Assembly: GCF_932294415.1 (NCBI RefSeq)
Contig: NC_065539.1
Span: 32,366,001 to 32,430,000 of the forward strand
Direction of reading: 5' to 3'
Source of the DNA: Quercus robur
Lineage: Eukaryota > Streptophyta > Magnoliopsida > Fagales > Fagaceae
Length of the DNA: 64,000 nucleotides
Below, in pieces: positions 6,565-54,900 of the stretch (its first letter is position 1; every line of letters begins with the position of its first letter). The position numbers were made by a program, and so were the translations under genes. The notes beneath the pieces were generated by a model. The model was not told the origin of the DNA, searched no databases, and saw nothing but the letters and a program-made list of their open reading frames with translations.

Positions 6565-8660
6565 ATTTGTTACCCACCTTTTCTTTGCAAACGACAGCCT
6601 GCTATTTTGTAGAGCAATACTGACAGATTTGGTAGTAATCCAAGCATTTTGGCGGTGTATGAACAAGCTTCAGGGCAGCAAATCAATAGAGATAAAACCA
6701 TGCTCTTCTCTAGCAAGGCTATGGTTGAAGAAAAGAAGGAGGAAATTCTGAATTTCCTAGGTGTTTCGAAGATTAAATAGTAAGAAAAATATCTTGGTCT
6801 ACCAGCAGTAGTGGGAAAAAACAAAAAGGCTAGCCTCAATTACATTAAGGAAAGAGTTTGGAGCAAGTTACAAGGATGAAAGGAAAAATTGTTATCCCAA
6901 GCGAGTAGGGAAGTTTTGATAAAAGCGATAGTACAAGCAATTCCAACATTTGCAATGGGTTGCTTTAAATTACCGGTGGGATTATGTCATGATATTGAGA
7001 TGCTTATTCGGAAGTTTTGGTGGGGTGAGTATGGTGAGCGGAGGAAAATTCATTGGAGGAACTGGGAGATATTGTGCAAACACAAGCTGGATGGTGGATT
7101 AGGCTTCAAAGATTTGGTCAAATTCAATGAAGCGATGCTCACTAAACAAGTATGGAGGCTGCTACCAGATAAGTCATCACTTTTCTTCAGAGTGTTCAGT
7201 GCCAAATAATTTCCAATAGGTTCGGTTCTTGATGCAAAAAGTTCAAGGGGGTCTTTTGCTTGGCAGAGCATTCTCAAGGCAAGACATGTCATAGAGAGAG
7301 GGATGCTATGGAGAATTGGAGATGGAAAAAAGGTCCATTTATTTCATGATAATTGGATCCCTGGTGACTTCCCATCAAAAGTAGTACCTTGCAGATTGGA
7401 TGTTTCAGACAAGCCCATAATCTCTACCATGATTGACCCAGATACAAGGACTTGGAATGAAGAGCTTCTGAAAAATTCCATCACCCCTTTTTTACTCCAG
7501 AAAATCGTGGCCATTCCAATCTGCAGAACTGAATAGGAAGATTGCCTAGTTTGGCCGTGAAGCAAGTGTGATTCATACACGGTGAGAACAGGATATCAAC
7601 TCCTTTGTGAGTTAACAAATTCTAAAGGGGCCTCCGACTCAAACACAACAGCATAAAAGGCTTTCTGGAAGCGTATTTGGAAATTAAAACTTCCAAATAA
7701 AATGAATATTTTTTGTTGGCGTGCTTGCTTTGATGCCCTCCCAACATTGAAGAACCTCCATCAAAGAAAAGTGCTTAACTCCTCTCTGTGTAACGCCTGC
7801 AGATTGTATAAGGAATCAACTTTCCATGCTCTATGGAACTGAGTCAATCAAACCAATATGGGGACCAAGATTTAATGCTCTTCGAGGCGATATTCCTAAG
7901 GTATCCTCCTTCTGGACCTGGTATACTTCATTGGACAACACCAAGAAAAGTTGGAGCTATTCACATGTGTGGCATGGCTTATTTGTTTTAGGAGGAATAA
8001 GAAGAGACTAAATGAACTGTGCCTTTCTCCAGAGAAAATTCTTAATGTAGCTCTAACGCTACTTAATGAATTCCAAGCAAAACCAGCGTAGCAACCACAA
8101 TCTAAACCATCGAAAGCTGTGAAGTGGAAACCACCAGGACCAGAAACCTACAAAGTCAACTATGATGGGGTGATGTTTGCAGAGCTGGGTGAAGCTGGAA
8201 TTGGTGTTGTGGTCAGAAATGAAAAAGGCGAAGTGATGGCCTCTCTAGCAGAAAAAATTCTGAGTCCAGAAAGTGTTGAAATGCTTGAGGCTTTGGCGGC
8301 GAGGAGAGCTGTAATCTTCTCTGTCGAATTGGGTCTTCATCTAGTGGTCATTGAAGGTGATTCAGAAATTGTGTTTAAAGCCTTATCGGGTTGGTGTTTG
8401 GAGCGTTCTGGCATTGGTCATATTATCAAAGACCGTAAGTCCATTTCGGGTTTCCTACAAACTTGTTCCTTCTCACATACTCGAAGGAAGGGCAATTGTG
8501 TGGCCTATGCCTTAGCTAAATGAGCAAGGATGTCTTTCCCTCTCTTAGTTTGGATGGAGTATGTTCCTCCAGACATTTCTTATTTAGTTTTTGTTGATGT
8601 AATTTCTTAATTCTACCTTTAATAAAATAGAATTATATCCCTCTCAAAAAAAAAGAAAAA
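6565..8660 (+). pseudogene. Dead 5'-truncated LINE ORF2 (reverse transcriptase to RNase H)
   Basis: Plus-strand translation starts just before the reverse transcriptase active site (HLFFANDSLLFCR, where the usual ADD is AND). It continues through 'YLGLPAVVGK', the '[17 protein letters not shown]' block, a zf-RVT-like block near 7660-7850 (FWKRIWKLKLPNKMNIFCW) and an RNase H domain at 8119-8523 (YKVNYDGVMF, IEGDSEIV, NCVAYALAK). Stop codons (for example near 6778, 6877, 7207 and 7534) and a frameshift after 7534 break it. It ends in an A-rich tail at about 8646-8668. It is a different family from the intact LINE at 16187. The loss of one catalytic aspartate and the stops make it inactive. Confidence 0.85.
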
Positions 8661-10905: not shown

Positions 10906-13900
10906 TCAAGGTAGATGTGAGACCAACTTGAAGTTGTCAACCAAAGTACGAAGGCGTCCCTTAGGATGTGACTTGGTGAAGATATCTGCAAGTTGATCTT
11001 TAGAGGAGACTGAGATCAGCTTAAGAGTACCATGGACAAGATGATAACGGATAAAATGACAATCGATCTCGATGTGTTTAGTCCGTTCATGGAAGACATC
11101 ATTGTGAGTAATATGAATGGAACTCTGGTTGTCACAATAAAGAGGAGTAGCAGAGGATGTAGACATATCTAAGTCTTTGAGAAGCCATCGTAGCCAAAGG
11201 AGCTCAGATGTGGTATCAACAAGGGCACGATATTCTGCTTTAGTACTGGAACGGGCCACATAAGTTTATTTCTTGTTTCACCAAGAAATCAGAGAAGAAC
11301 CAAGAAGAAAGCAATAACCAGTGGTGGACTTGCGATCAGTGAGATCTCCTGCCCAATCAGCATCAGAAAATGCACGGAGAATAAGAGGAGACTGAGCAGA
11401 GTAGAAAAGACCATGGAATAGAGTGCCCTTTAGGTATTAAAGAATGCGCAGAACAGTAGCATAGTGAGTCGATCGTGGAGCAGACAGATATTGGTTCACC
11501 TAGTGAACAGCATAGGAAAAGTCTAGACGAGTGACAATGAGATAAACTAGGCTGCCAACCAAGCGTCTGTAAAGAGAGGGATTAGACAATGGTTTCCCTT
11601 CTAAGGGAGTCAGATGCGCATTAAACTCAACTGGAGTGTCAACAATCTTGCTATCAGTGAGTCCAGCTCGAGAAAAAAGTTCAGAGCATACTTGGCTTGA
11701 GTAATATAAAGTCCATCTATAAAATGAGTGATTTCAAGACCCAAGAAGTAGCTGAAATGTTCAAGATCTTTCATCTCAAACTGCTGACTGAGAAAATCCT
11801 TGAGTTCTTGAATGCCACTAAGGTCATCATCAGTTATGATCATATCATCCACATATAGGAGAAGTAAAATAATGCCTTTGTCAGTGCAACGAAGAAATAA
11901 GGCAGAATCATAATGACTGGCCATGTAACCTAAGCGAGAGATGGTAGAGCTGAATTTGGCAAACCAAGCTCGTGAAGCTTGTTTAACGCCATAAAGTGCA
12001 CGTTGAAGGTGACACACCTTGTTTGAATCAACAGAGAGACCAAGAGGAGGTTGCATATAAAATTCTTCACTTAAATCCCCATTAAGGAATGCATTTTTGA
12101 CATCCATTTGAAAAATGTCTCATTTACTGGCAGCAGCAACAGTTAAGAGGGTACGAACAGATGAGATGCGAGCAACCGGAGCAAATGTCTCTTCATAATC
12201 AATCCCATACTCCTGTGTAAACCCTTTTGCAACAAGACAAGCTTTGTAGCGCTCAATGGACCCATCAGAGCGAGTCTTAATCTTGTAGATCCAATTACAA
12301 CGAACCACAAATTTCCCGGGGGGGGAGTGTCACCAAATCCCAAGTATGGTTTTTAGATAATGCATCAAATTCCTCTTTCATTACAATCTGCCATAAAGGG
12401 TCAATGGAAGCCTTACGATAGGTGTGAGGCTCGTGTAGTGTAGCAAGGGCAGTGTAACAATGATAGTCAAGTAAATGTGCAAGAATAGATCTTACCCGAG
12501 TTGAGTGACGAGGTGGAATGTCTTGTACAAGATTTTCAGGCGGAGCAGGAGCAAGGGACCCAAGCTCAGGGTTGGGGTTAGGTAGCTCATCTTCGACTTG
12601 TTCATCTTCCACCTGTTCATTAAAGGGTGAACTAGGAAATGGATTAGTGATATCTGGTGGTTGGACAGAGAAATCTACAGGAGAATCAAGAGCAACTATA
12701 GGAGGATCAGGAGCAGCTACAGAAGGGAATATGTGCCTCATCTGGAAAGAGATCTAAGACAGAGGAGGAAGATAGGGAGGCACGGAAGTGAGAGAGCTCG
12801 ACAAAAACGCGATGTTCCCAAAAGACAACATTGCGGGAGATACGAAGACGATGAGAGACAGGATCATAACACCGATACCCTTTTTGAGTTTCGCCATAGC
12901 CAAGAAAACAACAAAGCCTTGACCGAGGCTCAAGTTTGTTATGCTCATGTGGTTGAAGAAGAATGAAACAAGCAAAACCGAAGGAGCGAAGGTGGTGATA
13001 GTCTGGAAGTGACCCAAAAATGCGCTCATATGGAGTTTGATTTTGGATGACAGGACTTGGAATGCGATTAATAGTATGAACAGTATAAAGAGCAGCTTTG
13101 CCCCAAAAAGGAGCAGGAACTTTGGCAGAGAGAAGGAGAGCACGAACAGTGTCAAGAATATGACGAAGTTTTCGTTTAGCTCTACCATTTTGTTAAGAGG
13201 TACCTGGACAAGTTAGTTGATGAACAGTGCCATAGGAATGCAAAACAGCTTGGAAAGCATATTGAGTGTACTCAAGAGCATTATCAGATCGAAAAATTTT
13301 GATACGTTTGGAAAATTGAGTTTCAACCATTTTTGCAAAATTATAATATACTTGTAACAATTCAGAATGATGTTTCATATTAAAAATCCAGCTATAGCGA
13401 GAGTAATCATCAACAAAAACAACAAAATATCGAGATCCACCAATACTAGAGACAAAGGAAAGCCCCCAAACATCAAAATGAATAAGGTCAAAGATATCAG
13501 TGGATATTGATTCACTAATATTGAAAGGCAAAACTGGTTGTTTTCCTAACTGACATGAAACACAATCAAAATTTTTTGTAGATACTAAACCTAACAAACC
13601 TCTAGAAGCCAATTATTGTACTCGTGAAGAGGATGCATAACCAAGTCGAGCATGCCAAAGTGCAAGGGAAGGAATAGAAGGAATTGCACCAGCTGCAGCA
13701 ACAGAAACAGGAGCAACAAGTGGAAGACGAAGGTTGTCCACAGGAAACATACGCCCAACTCTAGGACCGATCCCAAGCTCCCGTCCCGTCCTCGAATCCT
13801 GCACAATACACCCAGAATAATCAAAGATAATGCAATAACCCAACTCAACTAATTGTCCAACAGAAAATAAATTATAAGAAAAGTCAGGAACATTAAAGAC

Positions 13901-14350
13901 TCCAGGAACCAAGAGATTGGAGGTCGCAACGGAACCTATATTATGACCAGACATTGTGGAACTATTTGCTGCGCGAATATTAAGAGGGTGCGGTGCAGGT
14001 TTAAGGTCAAAAAATAAGGACGAATGAAGTGTCATGTGATTGCAACAAGCAAAATCCATAAGCCAAGAGGTAGGAGACATACCAGATAAAGCTAAGAAAG
14101 AAGAGGAATAAGATGCATTACCAACCATACGAATGACATTGGCGATGATATTTATAAGGTCATCTCTGAAAATGGTGAAAGTGGATCCAGAAGACTGAGA
14201 CTTTGCAGAGATGGAAGCCATAGGTTGGACACTCTTAGTGTTAGCAACTGTAGCAGCAGAAATGGAAACAACTGATTTGTTGCGTTGATAGCAAGTCTCA
14301 ATATTATGGCCAAAACGTTTGCAAAAATTGTAAAAACGTTTGTTGAATTA
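10906..14350 (-). pseudogene. Copia pol remnant (protease, integrase, RT, RNase H)
   Basis: Reading on the minus strand. A zinc knuckle remnant near 14290-14335 reads YNFCKRFGHNIETC, with the first Cys now Tyr. The protease reads WLMDFACCNHMT where the family has a D-S/T-G triad, so the active site is lost. The GAG-pre-integrase and integrase core (13612-13193) include HFDVWG and FRSDNALEYT. An in-frame stop lies at about 13190-13192. Beyond it the sequence reads NGRAKRK where the third catalytic acid (AERK) is expected. The RT (12308-11610) has a stop for Trp before DIFQMDVKNAFLNGD, but retains LLLYVDDM. The RNase H (11259-10906) contains MARSSTKAEYRAL and TKHIEIDCHFIR. The domains fall in at least three frames. 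Confidence 0.88.
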
Positions 14351-16171: not shown

Positions 16172-16186
16172 AATAACACAACATTC
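16172..16186. repeat. LINE target-site duplication, left copy
   Basis: The 15-bp sequence AATAACACAACATTC here is repeated exactly at 21978-21992, right after the A-tail. An exact 15-bp duplication implies a young insertion. Confidence 0.9.
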
Positions 16187-16320
16187 GTTTTCGCTCCTAA
16201 CTCTTTCACGTCGCTCTCGTGCTCTCGTGCATGTAGATGCAGTTGTGTCTTGCAGGTCTCCTTGCAAGAGTGTTGTGACCTCCTGTTTCAGTGAGGTCGG
16301 TTTAGTAGCTCTGCGAAACT

Positions 16321-17814
16321 ATGACGGCAGAGCTGGAAGAGTTATGGAAGAAACTCTCTTTTACGGAAGAGGAAGATGAGAGTATTTCTCTGGGGAGCAA
16401 TAGCACAGAAGCAGCAAAGGAAATAGGTAAGAAATGCCTCGTGATGAAGGTGCTGGCACACAGAAGTATATCGCTGGAAGCACTTCGGAAAAACTTGAGG
16501 ATGATATGGAAGCCCAACAAAGGAGTGCAGATAACGGAGATTGACGATGAGCTATACTTAGTCGAGTTTGGAGATGGACGGGACAAGAAGAAAATTATGG
16601 ATATGAGCCCCTGGAGCTATGAGAAACAACTAGTTCTGTTAAAGGAGTTTGAAGGTGAACAAGTTCCAAAGGATATATCTATCAAGCAGTCGCCGTTTTG
16701 GATTCAGATTCATAACCTCCCATTGATGAGCAGAACCTGTGAGACGGGCTGGGCTATAGGGTCCACGCTAGGAGAGGTGATGTCCGTTGATGCAGCTGAA
16801 TCTGGGGTTCAATGGGGAAAGTATCTCCGGATTAGAGTGAAGATCGATGTTACAAAGAAGTTAGTCAGAGGAAAGAAAGTTAAGATTGAAGGGGGCGAGC
16901 AAAGATGGATTAGTTTCAGGTATGAAAGGCTTCCAAATTTCTGCTACAGATGTGGAATGCTGAACCACGACCTCAGGGACTGTGCGGAAGCAGTGGAGAA
17001 AGAAAACCAAAAGGAGCAAACAAACCTTCAATATGGACCGTGGTTAAGAGGTGAGACAATTCAAAGGGTCGGAGGTGAGGCACCTAGAGGAGGTCAGAGT
17101 TTTGGGCTGAGTATGGGAGACAAACAAGGAGGAAATGTGGGAAAAATCTCGGGGAAGCCATCTCACGCGCCACCTGTGGCATTGGGGGTGGAAGTTGCAG
17201 AGGGGTCAGCGATGAACGACCTAGGAAACAGGGAGAAAGAGGATGGGACAAAAGGGCATGATACTAGAGATCAAGCTCCAGGATGTATTCATGAAAATGG
17301 TATGGGCAGTAGTTTCGGGTTGAACAAGGAAAGCAGTATTCTTTTACAGGAAAAGGAAAGTTTGACCAAACCCACAATCCAAAATGAAGATGTGAGTGAT
17401 CAGAGGGGGGAGAAAGGGACTCAACAGAAGCAAGAGCCTCATTTTGACTTCCTTTTGGCGCCAAGTTTGAAAGGCCTAAGTGGGGTTGAAAACCCAATTA
17501 AAAATGAGAAAGAAACAGGCCCAATGGCCATATGTTTTAATGAGGAGACGGGCTGGGTGGCAGAGACGTTGGGCCCGAAGAGTGGGCACTGGAAAAGACT
17601 CGCGAGGAAGGCCCATTGTAATGATGAGAGCATGGGCCTTGACTTACTGGGGAGCAAAAGGCCTGGTCCGGTTCCCATTATGAAACTTGAACAAGACTTA
17701 GTTGTGCAGAAACGAAAGAAAACAGCGAGCAAAGGACAAAACACTCAGGAAAAGGAAAATGATAGGGATGGCGAAGAGGCGGCGACTGCGATGCAGGGCC
17801 GCCGAGCCACATGA
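16321..17814 (+). CDS. LINE ORF1: DUF4283/zinc-knuckle nucleic-acid-binding protein
   Basis: A 497-residue protein. In plant L1 elements ORF1 binds the element RNA and forms the ribonucleoprotein with ORF2. Residues about 30-165 have the DUF4283-type pattern (RSISLEALRKNLRMIWKP, later PFWIQIHNLPL). A CCHC zinc knuckle follows at residues 208-221 (CYRCGMLNHDLRDC; C208, C211, H216, C221). The rest is polar, low-complexity and Lys/Glu/Gly-rich, typical of the variable tail. The start at 16321 is the first ATG in the frame after the leader and gives the whole domain. The stop codon overlaps the ORF2 start (ATGA), so ORF2 may be translated by termination-reinitiation. No frameshift or missing motif was seen. 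Confidence 0.9.
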   Translation: MTAELEELWKKLSFTEEEDESISLGSNSTEAAKEIGKKCLVMKVLAHRSISLEALRKNLRMIWKPNKGVQITEIDDELYLVEFGDGRDKKKIMDMSPWSYEKQLVLLKEFEGEQVPKDISIKQSPFWIQIHNLPLMSRTCETGWAIGSTLGEVMSVDAAESGVQWGKYLRIRVKIDVTKKLVRGKKVKIEGGEQRWISFRYERLPNFCYRCGMLNHDLRDCAEAVEKENQKEQTNLQYGPWLRGETIQRVGGEAPRGGQSFGLSMGDKQGGNVGKISGKPSHAPPVALGVEVAEGSAMNDLGNREKEDGTKGHDTRDQAPGCIHENGMGSSFGLNKESSILLQEKESLTKPTIQNEDVSDQRGEKGTQQKQEPHFDFLLAPSLKGLSGVENPIKNEKETGPMAICFNEETGWVAETLGPKSGHWKRLARKAHCNDESMGLDLLGSKRPGPVPIMKLEQDLVVQKRKKTASKGQNTQEKENDRDGEEAATAMQGRRAT

Positions 17815-20800
17815 GTATCTTGGCTTGGAATTGCCGGGGTCTAGGATCACCCCCGGCAGTTCGGATTCTCACCGACGAGGTGAAATCCAAAAATCCGATC
17901 CTCTTGTTCCTTGTGGAGACCAAAGCTCGTTCCAGCAGAATGAAGGGCTTCATGAGGAAATTGGAGATGACCCAGGGAATTGATGTTCCTAGCGACGGCA
18001 TGAGCGGCGGGTTGGCTATGATTTGGAAGGAAGGCGCAGATATTCGGTTCAAAAGCTGCTCCAACTCGCATATCGACGTGGTGGTATACGATGAGAAGGG
18101 GCGGAATCCATGGAGGGCGACCGGGTTTTATGGGCATCCGGATGCAAGGAAGAGGCATATATCATGGAGTTTGCTTGAAACATTGAAGAAGCAATGTGAT
18201 ATGCCGTGGGTGGTCTTTGGCGATTTCAACGAGATCACCCACCCCGATGAAAAGCTTGGATGGGCAGACCGTGATGCAGATCAAATGAGAAAATTTAGAG
18301 ATTGTCTGAGTGTGTGTGGCCTTAATGATTTGGGTTTTGTGGGAAGCAGATTTACTTGGTGCAACGGACGGTTTGGGGACCAACGGACCCTTGTTAGATT
18401 GGATCGGGTGGTGGCCAATGAGGGCTGGCTTGCTAATTTTTCTGAAGCGCAAGTTCACCACGTCTCAATGGCAGCTTCGGACCATTGCCTCTTGGCTTTG
18501 TTCTTAAGGAAAAAGGCGCCACCAAAGAAAGTGAAAAAGAGATTCTTTTTCGAGGCCATGTGGATCAGAGATGAAAGATGCAAGGAAGTTATTGAAGGGG
18601 CTTGGGATCCATTACGGGCTGATGTGGACATTCAGGAGAGAATTAAAAATTGTCAAGGGCAGCTTAGAAGATGGAACAATGGGGTCTATGGGAATGTGAA
18701 TAGGGTGCTGAAGCTGAAACAGGACAGACTTAGACACCTTGAAGGGTTGAATCTCTTGCACGAGACAGCGGCAGAAATTCAGGGCTTGAAAAAGGAGATC
18801 AATGAGATACTCATAAGGGAAGAGGTTATGTGGAATCAAAGATCAAGGGCTTTATGGATCAAATGTGGCGACCGCAATACTAAATTTTTCCATGCCACGG
18901 CAAATCAAAGACGAAAGACTAATAAGATTGAGGGGATTCGGGGCGCGAACGATGTTTGGTTTGATCAGCCGGAGGACATTGAGAGAGAAGTCCTTGAGTA
19001 TTTTTCATCCATTTTTAGCACAGCCAGTCCATCTTCTTTTGCTGCTAGTTTGGGTGCCATTAATCCGCTGGTCTCGGATGAGATGAATGCTACTCTCCTT
19101 AAGGAGTTTAGTGTGCTGGAAGTCCGAAATGCTCTGCATCAAATGCACCCTACCAAAGCCCCCGGCCCCGACGGTATGTCCCCTATCTTTTATCAAAAGT
19201 ACTGGAATGTGGTTGGGCATAATGTTACAAACTCTGTTTTGCAAATTCTGAATACTGGTTGCATGCCGTATGGTTGGAATGAAACTTATATTTGTCTTAT
19301 ACCTAAAGTCAGCTCCCCCCAAAAAATATCTGAATATAGGCCCATTAGTCTTTGTAACGTCCTCTATAAAATTGTAGCAAAAGTCCTCGCTAATAGGTTG
19401 AAACTGATTCTACCTGAAGTTATTAGCGAGTCTCAGAGTGCATTTGTTCCAGGAAGACAGATAACTGATAATGTGATTGCAGCGTTCGAAACTATGCATA
19501 GTGTTGATTTACGAAGAAGAGGGAAACAGGGTCTGATGGCAATAAAACTTGATATGAGCAAAGCGTACGATAGAGTGGAGTGGGCTTATTTGGATGCAAT
19601 GATGAGAAAATTGGGGTTTGCAGAGAGATGGATCAAGCTGATTATGATGTGTGTTACGACAGTGACTTACTCTGTTCTAATTAATGGAGAGCCGAGGGGA
19701 AAAATAAGTCCATCTAGGGGTCTTCGACAAGGCGATCCCATTTCCCCGTATCTCTTCCTATTATGCTCTGAAGGGCTGTCTGCCATGTTGAAAAGAGAGG
19801 AGACAGTGGGCAGAATAAAAGGGGTGTCGGTGTGCCGGGGTGCTCCTCAAGTGTCCCATCTCTTATTTGCAGACGATAGTATCATATTTTGTAGGGCAAG
19901 TGTGAGTGAAGGGCAGAGGGTGATGAAAGTATTGGCGGATTATGAACAAGAATCGGGGCAGAAGTTAAATAAGGAGAAGACATCTTTGTTCTTTAGTAGA
20001 AATACAAATAGAGATTGTCAAGAAGAAATTAAGGAGTTGTTTGGGGCCCAAATCATCCAACAACATGAAAGATATTTGGGATTGCCCCCGCTTGTGGGCC
20101 GTGGAAAGAGGAAAGCTTTCTCTCGGGTTAAAGACCAAGTCGGGAGGAAAATAGCTAATTGGAAAGGTAAGCTATTGTCCAATGCGGGTCGTGAGATTCT
20201 TATTAAGGCGGTTGCTCAAGCCACGCCTACATACACAATGAGCTGCTTTAAGTTCCCGGATTCACTTTGCAAAGAGCTTAATTCGATGACGCGAAACTTC
20301 TGGTGGGGGCAGAAAGATAAGGAGAGAAAAATGGCTTGGATCTCTTGGGAAAAGCTATGTATCCCTAAATCGGAAGGCGGCATGGGGTTCAAAGATCTTA
20401 AGGCTTTCAATCTCGCGCTCCTTGCCAAGCAAGGGTGGCGGCTTCAACAAAACCCAAACTCCATTACCTACAAAATACTAGAAGCAAAGTATTTTAAGGG
20501 GAGCAACTTCATGGAGGCAAAATTGGGCAGAAGACCTTCTTATGTGTGGAGGAGTTTGCTGGCAGCAAGGGAAGTTCTTGAGAGGGGGTCCCGATGGATC
20601 ATTGGGGATGGAAAAAAGGTTAAGACCTGGGAGGATAGATGGCTCCCAACTCCAAACACCTTCAAAGTAATGAGTCCGCGGTGTCAAGTTCAAGTGTTGG
20701 ATAGGGTGGAGAATCTAATAGATAGGGAGAAAGGCTCTTGGGATGCAGACTTGGTGAAGAGCAATTTTGTTGCTCATGAGGCAGAAACCATTTTAAGTAT

Positions 20801-21944
20801 CCCTATTAGTAGCACTCTCCCTAAGGACTCTCGGGTTTGGGCAGGAACAAGGAATGGTTTGTTTACTGTTAGAAGTGCCTATGAAGTGGCTTTCAATCTC
20901 ATTAAGGAAGGAAATCAGCAAGTGGCCTTAGGGGAAAGCTCAGACAGATCAAAAATGAAGGTTTTTTGGAGGTTTATTTGGAAGTTGGAGTGCCCGAATA
21001 AGGTAAAACAGTTTTTCTGGAAAGCCTGCAAAGACATACTACCCACCAACTCTATGCTTGTTTCTCGGAAAATCACCGGGATTGATAGTTGTGGGTTGTG
21101 TGGGATTCGTGAAACCTCGGGTCATGCTCTTTGGGGATGCAAATTTGCTTCAGAGGTATGGAAAAATGGGGGTCTGCCAACAAGAGTAAGAGACCAGCTT
21201 CGGTACTCAAATGAATTCATAGATGTGGTGTGGAAGCTGAAGGAGGATAAGTGTATCCAAGACTGGGAGTGGTATGCAATCATGGCATGGAAGATATGGA
21301 ATAACAGGAACTCTTTCAAGCATGAAGGCCTGTGTAAACAGCCAAAACAAATTGCAGTAGAAGCCCGAAACTACACTGAGGAATGCAGACAGAGTGATCC
21401 TTCACCTAATGGAATTCAGGTTCGAACCAATACTTGCTGGCAACCGCCAAGGGCTGGTTGGTATAAAGTCAACGTGGATGGAGCCATTTTCAAGGATGCT
21501 AGGTGCTGCGGTGTTGGAGTCGTGATCAGGAATGAAAAAGGCCAAGTCATGGGAGCTTTAAGTAAAAGAATACATCTGCCCCTGGGGCCTTTAGAGATTG
21601 AAGCAAAGGCTATGGAGGAAGGCATTCAGTTGGCAAAAGATCTTAGTCTTAAGGAGATCATCATTGAAGGTGATGCAAAGCAGGTGGTGATGGCCATTTC
21701 CGATTCTTCCTCGGCCCCAAGCTCGATCAAGAAGGTGATTGAGGGAATGCGTCTCTGTTTGCTGCATTTTAATCACTGGACGGCTTCCCATGTTGGCAGA
21801 AATGGTAACATGGTTGCGCACCAGTTAGCCAAGCATGCTTTGTTTGAGGAAGAATGTACTGTTTGGGTGGAAGATACCCCCCATTTTGTATCAAATCTGG
21901 TTCTTATGGATGTAATCTCTATGGATAATTGTCCAAATCAATGA
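17811..21944 (+). CDS. LINE ORF2: endonuclease, reverse transcriptase and RNase H
   Basis: A 1377-residue protein that nicks target DNA and copies the element RNA in place. Domains in order: an apurinic-type endonuclease at residues about 1-225 (LAWNCRGLGS, the E of VETK at 36, VVFGDFNEI, ASDHCLL); a reverse transcriptase at about 440-720 (KAPGPDGMSPIFYQKYW, RPISLCNVLYKIVAKVLANR, MAIKLDMSKAYDRVEW, LRQGDPISPYLF, with FADD at 686-689); a zf-RVT segment at about 1040-1120 (FWRFIWKLECPNKVKQFFWK, CGLCG); and a C-terminal RNase H at about 1215-1345 (VNVDGAIF with D1223, IEAKAMEEG, IEGDAKQVV, NMVAHQLAKHA). Every key motif I can check is present and no stop interrupts it. The ATG overlaps the ORF1 stop by one base register (ATGA). 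Confidence 0.93.
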   Translation: MSILAWNCRGLGSPPAVRILTDEVKSKNPILLFLVETKARSSRMKGFMRKLEMTQGIDVPSDGMSGGLAMIWKEGADIRFKSCSNSHIDVVVYDEKGRNPWRATGFYGHPDARKRHISWSLLETLKKQCDMPWVVFGDFNEITHPDEKLGWADRDADQMRKFRDCLSVCGLNDLGFVGSRFTWCNGRFGDQRTLVRLDRVVANEGWLANFSEAQVHHVSMAASDHCLLALFLRKKAPPKKVKKRFFFEAMWIRDERCKEVIEGAWDPLRADVDIQERIKNCQGQLRRWNNGVYGNVNRVLKLKQDRLRHLEGLNLLHETAAEIQGLKKEINEILIREEVMWNQRSRALWIKCGDRNTKFFHATANQRRKTNKIEGIRGANDVWFDQPEDIEREVLEYFSSIFSTASPSSFAASLGAINPLVSDEMNATLLKEFSVLEVRNALHQMHPTKAPGPDGMSPIFYQKYWNVVGHNVTNSVLQILNTGCMPYGWNETYICLIPKVSSPQKISEYRPISLCNVLYKIVAKVLANRLKLILPEVISESQSAFVPGRQITDNVIAAFETMHSVDLRRRGKQGLMAIKLDMSKAYDRVEWAYLDAMMRKLGFAERWIKLIMMCVTTVTYSVLINGEPRGKISPSRGLRQGDPISPYLFLLCSEGLSAMLKREETVGRIKGVSVCRGAPQVSHLLFADDSIIFCRASVSEGQRVMKVLADYEQESGQKLNKEKTSLFFSRNTNRDCQEEIKELFGAQIIQQHERYLGLPPLVGRGKRKAFSRVKDQVGRKIANWKGKLLSNAGREILIKAVAQATPTYTMSCFKFPDSLCKELNSMTRNFWWGQKDKERKMAWISWEKLCIPKSEGGMGFKDLKAFNLALLAKQGWRLQQNPNSITYKILEAKYFKGSNFMEAKLGRRPSYVWRSLLAAREVLERGSRWIIGDGKKVKTWEDRWLPTPNTFKVMSPRCQVQVLDRVENLIDREKGSWDADLVKSNFVAHEAETILSIPISSTLPKDSRVWAGTRNGLFTVRSAYEVAFNLIKEGNQQVALGESSDRSKMKVFWRFIWKLECPNKVKQFFWKACKDILPTNSMLVSRKITGIDSCGLCGIRETSGHALWGCKFASEVWKNGGLPTRVRDQLRYSNEFIDVVWKLKEDKCIQDWEWYAIMAWKIWNNRNSFKHEGLCKQPKQIAVEARNYTEECRQSDPSPNGIQVRTNTCWQPPRAGWYKVNVDGAIFKDARCCGVGVVIRNEKGQVMGALSKRIHLPLGPLEIEAKAMEEGIQLAKDLSLKEIIIEGDAKQVVMAISDSSSAPSSIKKVIEGMRLCLLHFNHWTASHVGRNGNMVAHQLAKHALFEEECTVWVEDTPHFVSNLVLMDVISMDNCPNQ

Positions 21945-21977
21945 AAGGTGAATGATGTTTGTTATCAAAAAAAAAAA

Positions 21978-21992
21978 AATAACACAACATTC
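21978..21992. repeat. LINE target-site duplication, right copy
   Basis: AATAACACAACATTC, identical to 16172-16186, immediately downstream of the A-tail. Confidence 0.9.
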
Positions 21993-37184: not shown

Positions 37185-43478
<6,294 letters not shown>

Positions 43479-44980
43479 GGTCTTGGTAGAACTCCCTCTT
43501 CTTTTTTTATAGCTTCATATTAACATTCTCTGGTCTTTTATGCCTTACTCCCTCTATGCCACACAATCTGTTCATTTGTACAAACTCAACCTTGAAACTT
43601 AACCAATGGAATTATCAACAACACCTATAGCTTCAAAGGCTTACTTTCACTATAAACTTGGACCAAGAATAGTGATAATATAAGATACTGTACAATTTCT
43701 TTAAAGGGTCATGTACATCATCTCCCACTCTTCAAAATTAGATCCACATTCAATGCCTCTCCCTATGGCTTCAAAACTTTGTATACGACGTAATGAAACA
43801 GTCTTCGACAAATATTCCCTTACAAGCAACAAAATGAAACAATTTCAAACAAAGATTCCACCGTATTTCGCATATTTACTCCATCATAAATAAACTGGAA
43901 GCAAAATTCATGGCTCTCACGGACACACATTTTTTGCACAACAAACACATCACAGGGGATTTTGCCTTAATTCCACAAAGGAACTTACAAATTCAACTGT
44001 GCAAGAAATAGCATAACATCAATTATCAACATCATATATGAAGCAATGAATAAAAATAAAAATAAAAACCATACAAAGAAAAAAAAAATGTATAGAGAAA
44101 AGAAAAAAAGGAGGGTATGTGAGAATTGAAATTAAAAATCTGATCCTGATGTTTCAATAAATAAAATAAAAAATACCCAGATTGATAAAATTGAATTAAA
44201 CATCAAAGAGAAGGAATGGTAAGAAGGGAACCTGGGAAAATGGTGCACGTGTACAAACTACATAGAATGGAATTAAGCTCCAAAGGTTGTTGCATTGGAT
44301 TTGGATTGAAGTCTGTACATTTTTAGTTTAATTTATTATTTAAAAAGAAAACCAAAAAAAGAAAATGGTGAGTTTGGGTTTGAGAGAGAGAGAGAGAGAG
44401 AGAGAAGAAGAGGCCGTTGCATAAGGGTCGGGAGTTCAAAATAGGGGGTGTGAGATAACGACATTGTTTGCTTAAAATAACGCGGCAGGCATATCAATTC
44501 AAGCCAAGGGAACACGAACAACAATGGCTTTAGATTCGAGGGCCTAACTGTAAACTAACTTATGATAACTGTTTCTGTCTCTATCTTAAATATTCTTTTT
44601 AAAGTTCTTTGGTCTCGAATGGCCCATGAAAGTTTTTTGGGTCATGGTTGCCTCATTCTAATTAATATTTTATGTCATGGGTCTACGGCCCATATTCCCA
44701 TTCTTCTTGGCTATGTAATTTAGACATTTTCTTTTTCACTTTTTCATTATTATTAAGTTTCGACCTATACCGTCTACTTCTAATAATTGTATTTTTTTAT
44801 CATCAAAATAATATACTAATTAATTTTTGATATAGACGGAAATTAAACTTCAAATATATTTTTCAATCATAAAAAACTTTTCTAGTTAAGCTATTTAGAA
44901 CTCACTTCTTTAAAAAAATTATTTAAATATATGTTTGTTAAAGGAATCTCTTTCTTTTCTTCTCTTTTTTTTTTTTTCAT
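43479..44980 (-). promoter_or_regulatory. 5' flank of the kinase gene, with (GA)n tract
   Basis: This is upstream of the kinase start. A GA-dinucleotide run at about 44383-44403 (CT on the gene strand) is common in plant 5' UTRs and core promoters. An acceptor-like sequence (inverse of 'cctgggaaaatgg' near 44231) suggests a 5' UTR intron, but I cannot place the transcription start. No other gene is seen. Confidence 0.4.
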
Positions 44981-51932: not shown

Positions 51933-54900
51933 TTACCTATATGAATCTGGACGCTTTGGCTTGCTTTGAACTACAGCCTCAATCTTCTCCATCACAGCAG
52001 GAGTCAGTAGCGGGATGACATCAATAGCTTTCATATTCTCTTGAATCTACATAGAAGAAAAAAGCTCTTTAATGGCATGCTTTATGGATTATATCATTTT
52101 CAGATTTTAGATGCTTACTAGCTTCATGTTCTAGCACCTTTGAGAGAAAAATAGGATTATATATAAGCATTTTCAATCAGGCAGAATAAAGAAATAAACT
52201 TTTTGGGGGAAACCTCAAAGAATGACCTTTAACATCACAAACCCATTTTTAAAATACATTCACAGATTAGGTGGGTTCAGAGGGGAAATATGAAGCAAAG
52301 ATATGCCCCAAGTGTGGCAACATGAATACAGCTCAGACACTCCATGAAGCTCCACATTAGACACATACAGTGTTTTTAAAGCACTGAAGCAAAGCTCATT
52401 TCAAAAAGCACGCCTTAGGCACTTTTTTTGGTGTTTTTTTGAAGAAGCATAAAGCATCCATAGGCGAGCTTTTTTATTTTATTGCTAAAAAAGATGAGAA
52501 TTAATAAAATTAATTGCTTGATCTTGAAGGAAATGACATGGACCATTGATTTATTATACAAATTATTCTTAAGGTGTCGTGTTGTATTTCAAAAGCAGTT
52601 TTTTTTATTTACATGTCAAAAGATACAAACAATTAAATCTGGGTTTAAGGAAGTGGTACGGATTCAGATTATACATCAATTAAAAGCGATAGGGAGTGGG
52701 ATCGAGTCCAAGAATCAGCCTCTCCAAAATGTTGGGGACAAAGCTGCCTAACATGACCTCTCTAGACTCCGCAAAAGTGGGAGCCTTCTCAATCAAATCA
52801 GGTAATTCACAGCAAACTACAGCTGCATCTAAGTCAGAATTTTTCTTTCCTTTCCTGTATCTAAGCTTCATTAAAAGGGATTAACAAAAGGGAGCTATGG
52901 AACAGTTTGGGGTTGTTTAAAGGGTAAGTAGGTCAGAACACCTGGCTGCTAATGGAGGATTTAAATGTGGTTAGAAACTCTTATGAAAAGTGGGGTTCTG
53001 GAAGTGTTTCAACATTTGTGATGGATTTTGGTTAGTGTTTATACAACACTGAAGTGATGGACTAGGCTTAAACAAGATGCTTTTATACATAGAGTAATAA
53101 AAGAAAAGGTATTGAGTTTGTGGCAGGGGAATGAGAGATGGATGAAGAAATACGGCCAGGCCACTAAAATTTTTAAGTCTATATCAGATCATTTATCTGC
53201 AGTGACGTCATTTGGTGAAGAAATGAATTTTGGGCACCAACCTTTCAATTTATTCAATTTCTGTGCAGATAATGATGAAATCCTATTTGTTTAAGAAAGG
53301 TTGAGAAACACACGTTGAAGGAGTTCCAATGTTTAAGCTATTCTCTAATTCTTTGATAAGGGTCGTACACATCTAGTTATGTGACATTCTCTTTTCCTTT
53401 TCTAATAAAACTTTTACTTTTCAAAACCAAAAAAAAAGGGTTTAAGCTATACTTTAAACTGAGGGCGGTGAAGAGAATCTTGAGGCAGATTAATCTGCAC
53501 AATCTGGCAGTATTTCTCAAAGGGTAATTCAAGTTAGATCCAAACTGGAACAAACCCAAAATTTCTTGATGAGGAATCCTAGAAATGAGTATTTGTGAAT
53601 AAGAAAAGGAGTGCATGCATGAGATGCTTTCAGTAAGTAAGGCTGAGGAAGCTTTTTTCAAACAAAAATCTAGGAATAAGTGGTTGAACTTGGGGAACCA
53701 CAACACCTCTGACTTTTATAGATTTGTTAAAGGAATATAACAAATTCACTCAAATGCTTATGAGATGATCAAGGAAACATGATGGAGAATCCGACCAGAT
53801 GATACACAATTGGCATTTGAGTTCTATAAAAGCCAGCTTGGAAAATCCAACTTACAATTTGGGGTTAATGAAGCCAGAAGAGAAAACACTGCTGAGGAAA
53901 TACAAAGAACTATTTTTTTTCTCTTAATGGTAATAAGGCCCTAGCCCATATGGGTTCTTGGCTTGTTTCTTCCATAAATCTTGGGCTATACAGTGTGAAA
54001 TGGAGGATGCAATCGAATCTTTCTTAAGGGAAGCTGTTAGGGAAAGTCAATGCAACAATTATAATCCTAGTCCCTAAGGTTCAGAATCCTTCCTACCTGG
54101 GTGATTTTAGGCCCATTTCATTCTGTAATGTCAAATGTGATATACAAGTGCATAACCTTCTGAAAAATCTGTTATACCATAATCAAACAACAGCATTTAT
54201 TACTAATAGAAGCATTATAGAACATGTGGTGATTGGCTGATTGCTCATGGGTGTATGCTTCAGTTAGCTGGGAATTTATCCTCCAATGTTTTGCTGCTGT
54301 TAGTGCAATGGGTCAGAACGTGCCTTATTACCCCTAAATTTTCAGTGGCTATTAATGGCAGCCTAGCTAGCTATTTTGAGAGAAATAAGGGATTAAGACA
54401 GGAGGATCTTTTGCCTCTCTATCTATTTGTGTTGGCAATGTAAGTATTTTCTAGACTGATTCTTGGGCTCCTCCAGTTTAGAGAAGGTCATTTTCCAATG
54501 AGATACATGGGTATTCCCTTAATCCCAGGTAAGTTATCTGCTCAAGATGAAAAAACATTTCAGGATAAAATCACTTCCGGAATTAACTCTTGGAATTCAA
54601 GGAACCTGTCCTTTGCAGGAAGACTACAGTTGCTGCCCTCAGTTTTATACACCATTGAAGTCTACTGAGAAAGCAGTTTTGTCCTCCCCAAGAAGGTAAT
54701 CACTATGATAGAGCAGGATTTTAATTCTTTCTTGAAAGATAAAAATTGGGCATGTAGGCCAGGAATCTCTAAGGATCTAGTAACCATAAAAGGCAAGCTA
54801 TCTTTGGTACCTATTAGGGATTGTGATAGACCCATTTGGACTCCTGCAAAGACAGGTTGCTTTTCTAGTGCAGAGACATGGAATGACTAAGATTTAGGCT

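Follow-up and report, generated by a model that had tools for sequence, protein, structure and literature searches.

The 64,000-nt stretch of the Quercus robur genome analyzed here (hereafter the window; assembly GCF_932294415.1, contig NC_065539.1, positions 32,366,001 to 32,430,000 of the forward strand) carries at positions 16187-21977 a complete, intact plant L1-type long interspersed nuclear element (LINE), which adds a new member to a known class of elements and is by itself ordinary. Its two open reading frames (ORFs) meet in an ATGA overlap that is preceded by a conserved stem-loop, and on these sequence features we favor, as the likely reading, that the second protein of this recently inserted element would be made by termination-reinitiation. 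The element is laid out as follows (window positions; UTR, untranslated region; aa, amino acids):

16172..16186, no strand: left target-site duplication AATAACACAACATTC, a 15/15 match to 21978-21992
16187..16212, + strand: 5' extension of 26 nt, private to the window copy; other full-length copies align from 16213 onwards
16213..16320, + strand: core of the 5' UTR, containing two small hairpins; it recurs in 80%-identical families and in some that are more distant
16248-16254/16263-16269 and 16277-16282/16293-16298, + strand: stems of the two 5' UTR hairpins
16321..17814, + strand: ORF1, 497 aa, with DUF4283 and a CCHC zinc knuckle (open frame and Pfam)
17769..17809, + strand: conserved stem-loop at the end of ORF1
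17778-17789, 17790-17792 and 17793-17803, + strand: 5' arm, loop and 3' arm of the stem-loop core
17769-17772 with 17806-17809, + strand: outer 4-bp stem of the stem-loop
17804..17810, + strand: invariant 7-nt spacer separating the core stem from the ORF2 AUG
17811..17814, + strand: ATGA, the overlap of ORF2 start and ORF1 stop
17811..21944, + strand: ORF2, 1,377 aa, with apurinic/apyrimidinic (AP) endonuclease, reverse transcriptase, zf-RVT and RNase H
21945..21966, + strand: short 3' UTR
21967..21977, + strand: A-tail of 11 A; 2 further A are shared with the duplication
21978..21992, no strand: right target-site duplication, identical to 16172-16186

Structurally, the first-pass annotation had called this LINE intact, with its A-tail preserved and a perfect 15-bp target duplication, and the other LINE copies in the window truncated or broken, and all of this stood. 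Both ORFs are open from start to stop, with the Pfam domains DUF4283 and zf-CCHC_4 in ORF1 and Exo_endo_phos, RVT_1, zf-RVT and RVT_3 in ORF2, where the FADD motif of the reverse transcriptase occupies residues 686-689; the A run spans 13 A (21967-21979), the last two being equally assignable to the duplication, whose two sides are identical. The remaining LINE pieces are degraded: the stretch at 6646-8607 has 36% identity and 12 stops, and of the fragments lying within 54049-54752 one contains a stop. An AP-type endonuclease with an L1-like reverse transcriptase, a target duplication and an A-tail, without long terminal repeats (LTRs), mark the element as an L1-type LINE, and the existence of 5'-truncated and 5'-inverted sister copies fits this assignment. 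The best PDB match of ORF2 is human L1 ORF2p (8sxt, E 3.7e-53), with which endonuclease and reverse transcriptase are colinear over residues 2-883, the RNase H domain being additional to the human protein. Within oak ORF2, zf-RVT lies at residues 1038-1117 and RVT_3 at residues 1221-1343, so that RNase H is C-terminal and follows the CCHC motif. The same two ORFs, and the same ORF2 order of endonuclease, reverse transcriptase, CCHC and C-terminal RNase H, are found in Ta11-type plant L1s (PMC5348765; here and below, published systems are compared from the available parts of the cited papers), and the final catalytic D of the Ta11-type D-E-D-R/H-D set corresponds, by eye, to H1337 in the oak LINE. 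A structure prediction of ORF1 from three rows reached a mean predicted local distance difference test score (pLDDT) of 29.6.

At the junction of the two ORFs, an 11-bp stem-loop ends 7 nt before the ATGA overlap. Its distribution was followed through 100 junctions of this genome (786 Mb in 42 contigs), 20 of them from full loci (seven of the window's family, including loci L016 and L017, and 13 picked by ORF1 similarity) and 80 from endonuclease-domain matches (150 of 151 listed, with 5,012 candidates at first look). These 80 were hand-picked with match starts at residue 1-3, include 19 of the last 20 listed, which form a far group, and hold fewer of the heavily interrupted middle ranks. Across endonuclease identities of 43-100%, the overlap reads ATGA in 95 junctions, ATAA in three, GTGA in one and ATGT in one; all 28 junctions with an uninterrupted ORF2 have ATGA, each with 10 or 11 of the 11 stem pairs. 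The 77 distinct 27-nt stretches comprise 40 with 11 pairs, 27 with 10, six with nine, one with eight and three that are degraded or shifted. Alignment A3 has 74 rows, the broken or degraded hairpins of L057, L087 and L104 and 23 duplicate 27-nt hairpins being left out; in every row the stem stands 7 nt from the AUG with no gap, while the spacer sequence varies between lineages (GAGCCAA, GGGAGCC, AGGTGCA). Genome-wide, the stem pattern with up to two mismatches had 120+118 matches, and the reversed pattern none. Matches to a covariance model were largely the model's own training rows. Of the 28 perfect pattern matches not previously collected, the first 20 were examined; they were chosen by pattern and so test the step from stem to junction and not the reverse. 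All 20 sit at L1 junctions, as judged by eye from the translated sequence: ATGA follows at exactly 7 nt in 18 and ATAA in one, and one has a small local duplication. The ATGA of those 18 is followed by an endonuclease start of the type M-x-x-L-x-W-N-C, the W being a stop in one. With all 20 examined matches at ORF1/ORF2 junctions, the stem can also serve as an annotation marker for L1s in the oak genome. At one locus, L134 (C6:52584427-52584760), part of the stem is repeated downstream and separates the stem from the ORF2 start.

Because the stem also codes for the end of ORF1, conservation of the protein had to be excluded as its cause. The ORF1-end peptide (A-V-A-A-x-Q-H-R-R) is recognizably similar between families, and the hairpin could be a by-product of it, an explanation that we regard as improbable since the fold is lost when synonymous codons are shuffled: in the window element none of 1000 shuffles was as stable (z -3.71), and 18 of 79 eligible junctions, hand-picked for diversity and shuffled with codon weights derived from the junction ends, gave a mean z of -2.83. 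When both ORFs were scanned with sliding windows (161-180 in ORF1 and 449-455 in ORF2 per element), the last 17 ORF1 codons had the most negative z in all four elements scanned, namely the window element (-5.5), its close relative L010 (-5.81), and L025 (-3.87) and L028 (-4.96), which belong to other L1 families and have an uninterrupted ORF2; since the window element and L010 are close relatives, the four represent three independent families. Third codon positions within the stem are 77-100% conserved, with the same base, in both the near (77) and far (22) groups, a comparison that leaves out L057, while the loop and the upstream flank change. Where the window element and L025 share identical codons, the third base is the same in 7/7 of the last 12 codons versus 139/269 elsewhere, which again speaks against the peptide as the conserved entity; the corresponding small numbers are 2/3 versus 121/235 for the window element and L028, and 4/5 versus 100/220 for L025 and L028. 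Moreover, the amino-acid substitutions V/H, A/R and E/L track U-A, C-G and A-U pairing. In the 74-row alignment, 93.4% of cells are paired versus 91.3 ± 0.3 in shuffles (0/500), 17 cells are double-changed versus 5.2 ± 2.1 (0/500), the covariation score is 0.169 versus 0.136 ± 0.005 (0/500) and further pair types number 17 versus 13.6 (6/500), with shuffles that ignore the relatedness of rows; with slid partners as the control, 19-66% were paired. The AUGA overlap and the stem-loop at a fixed distance from it are thus conserved through the sampled L1 lineages more than the peptide explains, with compensatory changes.

Several observations weigh against a dedicated translational signal at this position. 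The window copy's own stem has one A-G mismatch, and a dinucleotide shuffle of its 70 nt gave a z of only -1.83, with 8/200 as stable. Two of the 18 codon-shuffled junctions were weak (L054, z -0.54; L049, z -1.40). In the covariation analysis, the number of pairs with double changes was not significantly raised (5 versus 3.5 in shuffles, 111/500), and 11 of the 17 double-changed cells fall in a single pair (columns 18-33). Stem pairs did not differ significantly between junctions with and without an uninterrupted ORF2 (p 0.09), and the junction evidence comes from one genome. In SART1, moreover, the structure that was needed lies downstream of the overlap, not upstream, and the region 17820-17870 of the oak element scored z -3.19 in the window copy and -3.26 in L010 in synonymous shuffles, so that a downstream contribution is possible. 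This stable fold starts 9 nt after the ORF2 AUG (-24.3 kcal/mol) and recalls the SART1 downstream structure; the five lowest windows in the sliding scans of L025 and L028 do not include it.

Mechanistically, dependence of ORF2 translation on ORF1 translation is documented in reviews for both SART1 and human L1. SART1 uses a UAAUG stop-start and needed structure downstream, with a hairpin at 34 nt (PMC5972666, PMC5902531), in contrast to the AUGA and upstream stem of the oak LINE, and the ORFs of human L1 lie 63 nt apart, according to a review, whereas those of the oak element overlap. Closer in arrangement is the coupled termination-reinitiation of caliciviruses and victoriviruses, in which stop and start overlap and the needed sequence lies just upstream (PMC5972666, PMC5902531); the oak LINE, with the AUGA also seen in caliciviruses, has its conserved stem in that place. 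The victorivirus structure is a predicted pseudoknot, unlike the oak stem-loop, and for the calicivirus element contact with 18S rRNA has been proposed. Among plant elements, the Celine LINE of poplar (PMC11288735) resembles the oak LINE in its two overlapping ORFs, the DUF4283 in ORF1, its intact copies and target duplications that average 15 bp (15 bp in the oak LINE), and differs in being abundant and centromeric with a 635-bp 5' UTR in the example given, in contrast to the few close copies and short 5' UTR of the oak LINE. Reinitiation or an internal ribosome entry site are named as possibilities for Celine, and the available parts of that account describe no hairpin at the junction. Rfam 15 contains no match to the junction element, neither stem nor ORF2 was found in the viral contigs searched, and the stem was not found in the collection of genome contigs. 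Nor is the element described among the papers listed by searches of open-license literature, although most subscription papers lie outside that search, so that a description in print is possible. It is at most a new variant of the known stop-restart kind.

How, then, might ORF2 be translated? Scanning to ORF2 was rejected as a route: 46 AUGs lie upstream in the window element, and only 8 of the 28 junctions with an uninterrupted ORF2 have a purine at -3. As for -1 frameshifting into an ORF1-ORF2 fusion, ORF2 does lie in the -1 frame and stays open for 6-53 codons upstream of its AUG (the upper value being bounded by the stretch covered), yet no canonical -1 heptamer occurs within 50 nt at any of the 28 junctions, and the ATGA overlap would be unnecessary, so we give this route hardly any credence. 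The junction does have two features of a reinitiation element, a stop/start overlap and conserved structure near it. Since scanning and frameshifting are unlikely, and given the calicivirus and victorivirus precedents, we posit a stop-restart element made up of the AUGA and the stem that precedes it, in which the hairpin is probably a device for translating the second protein. Ribosomes would end ORF1 at the UGA, the hairpin would re-form at the ribosome exit side and hold or position the post-termination ribosome, and a minority would restart at the overlapping AUG, so that a single unspliced RNA would yield ORF1 protein in abundance and ORF2 protein in small amounts. We extend this proposal more tentatively to plant L1s as a group, in which an undescribed 11-bp stem-loop 7 nt upstream of the AUGA may drive termination-reinitiation at ORF2.

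Alternatively, the hairpin could be an RNA-protein signal, recognized by ORF1p or ORF2p for packaging or cis-preference, with the ATGA overlap alone coupling translation. The stem is conserved in sequence beyond pairing while loop and spacer vary, as expected of a specifically bound stem, and two more small hairpins stand in the 5' UTR and are kept in other families; against this, a constant 7-nt distance to the AUGA across lineages is unneeded for packaging. We consider this account unlikely overall, and the constancy of stem sequence and distance beside a variable loop and spacer sequence leaves some room for a protein-binding role. That the element is an ordinary intact LINE carrying its AUGA and hairpin as functionless inherited relics might be read from the ATGA kept in 67/72 interrupted copies sampled, and it is very improbable in view of their retention through deep divergence, while about half of the third bases elsewhere have changed. 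The available parts of PMC11288735 do not settle how plant LINEs produce two proteins from one RNA, and a conserved element of some 40 nt with fixed spacing makes the question testable by a simple reporter. If termination-reinitiation is the correct reading, an upstream-structured stop-restart signal is encoded in a plant nuclear genome.

Evolutionarily, the window copy is young and has few close copies. The recent insertion proposed in the first-pass annotation is borne out by the open ORFs, the perfect duplication, synonymous-biased substitutions and, as that annotation had suggested looking for, near-identical copies with distinct target duplications. A 971-bp probe from the 3' end recovered at least seven further close copies at 93-99% identity, followed by a gap to about 80%; 40 of the 76 candidates were scored, so these counts are lower bounds. 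Six of the seven carry a distinct duplication of their own, and none was found for L014. According to a 5' probe, the 5' end is present in four of the seven. Copy L010 has both ORFs open and is 99% identical; its first nucleotide falls 40 nt into the window element and about 14 nt within the core that the copies share. In L011, L014 and L015, which extend back to the shared 5' start, the ORFs are broken. The copies L009 and L012 are 5'-truncated, and L013 (C38, about 7.387 Mb) has an inverted 5' part and a 17-bp duplication, a twin-priming type of structure. L016 and L017 are older, broken copies of about 80% identity that retain their 5' ends; a target duplication was found for L016 and was looked for without success at L017. 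The combination of target duplication and A-tail points to a polyadenylated RNA that was inserted through target-primed reverse transcription.

The window copy and L010 differ at 60 of 5,751 sites, with 11 non-synonymous and 30 synonymous differences in ORF2 (dN/dS, the ratio of non-synonymous to synonymous substitution rates, 0.10) and eight and nine, respectively, in ORF1 (dN/dS 0.24). In ORF2 the synonymous excess has a p of 4e-12 against the ~78% non-synonymous changes expected under free decay after insertion, which assigns most of the differences to lineages that were still being copied under selection, with few added after insertion. Were all 11 of the near-private non-synonymous changes post-insertion, the upper bound on neutral divergence would be ~11/4,162 sites, or 0.26%; with a plant substitution rate of 7e-9 per site per generation, the insertion would be at most some 0.4 million generations old. 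C-to-T-like changes make up 9/30 in the window copy versus 89/137 in two dead copies (p 8e-4), as would be expected if few arose while the copy was methylated. Taken together, the few close copies, the perfect duplication and the mostly synonymous differences support a young, recently inserted copy. The further suggestion that it is a possible source element found no backing. Its 30 near-private variants, defined as positions at which it differs from L010, L011 and L014, are absent from the incomplete copies L009, L012 and L013 (0 over 6, 5 and 10 covered sites, respectively), and 4/30 occur in the old copy L015, so that no offspring is visible in the assembly; its 26-nt 5' extension, too, occurs once in the genome. 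A search of the assembly with the joined flanks for a paralogous empty site returned only its own flanks and partial matches (69-88%), none of which crosses the junction.

The shared 5' core starts at 16213, and some families of ~70% identity have the same start. At up to three mismatches, the 26-nt extension matched only the window's own copy in the 786 Mb (reversed control, 0), and L011, L015 and L016 have 10-12 nt of differing sequence, G first, between target duplication and core. Unrelated sequence of 10-26 nt with a leading G thus precedes the core in four copies, and these extra nucleotides likely stem from RNA ends or template switching. The two 5' UTR hairpins (16248-16298) pair UCUUGCA with UGCAAGA and GACCUC with GAGGUC; without a formal count, they appear to be kept with different pairs in distant families (L024, L026, L030, L035 and L036), for example UCCUGUA/UACAGGA in L030 and GGUCCU/AGGACC in L026, and the second appears duplicated in L024 and L025.

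Among oak-genome LINEs, the window element is not exceptional: counted by hand, 27 of the 150 listed relatives, itself and L010 among them, have an ORF2 frame that runs uninterrupted for at least 1,320 aa, so that the genome holds many intact L1s of several families. Three of other families with an uninterrupted ORF2 (C40:12415177, C40:36555618 and C4:23361295) have identical junctions over the stretch compared, and the window's family may be older than they are. Elsewhere in the window, pieces resembling a Copia-type LTR retrotransposon, judged by eye from the ORFs, lie at 11610-14347 on the minus strand, and a 767-aa open frame at 41211-43514, also on the minus strand, is apparently a plant gene exon with a putative PB1-like stretch recognized by eye.

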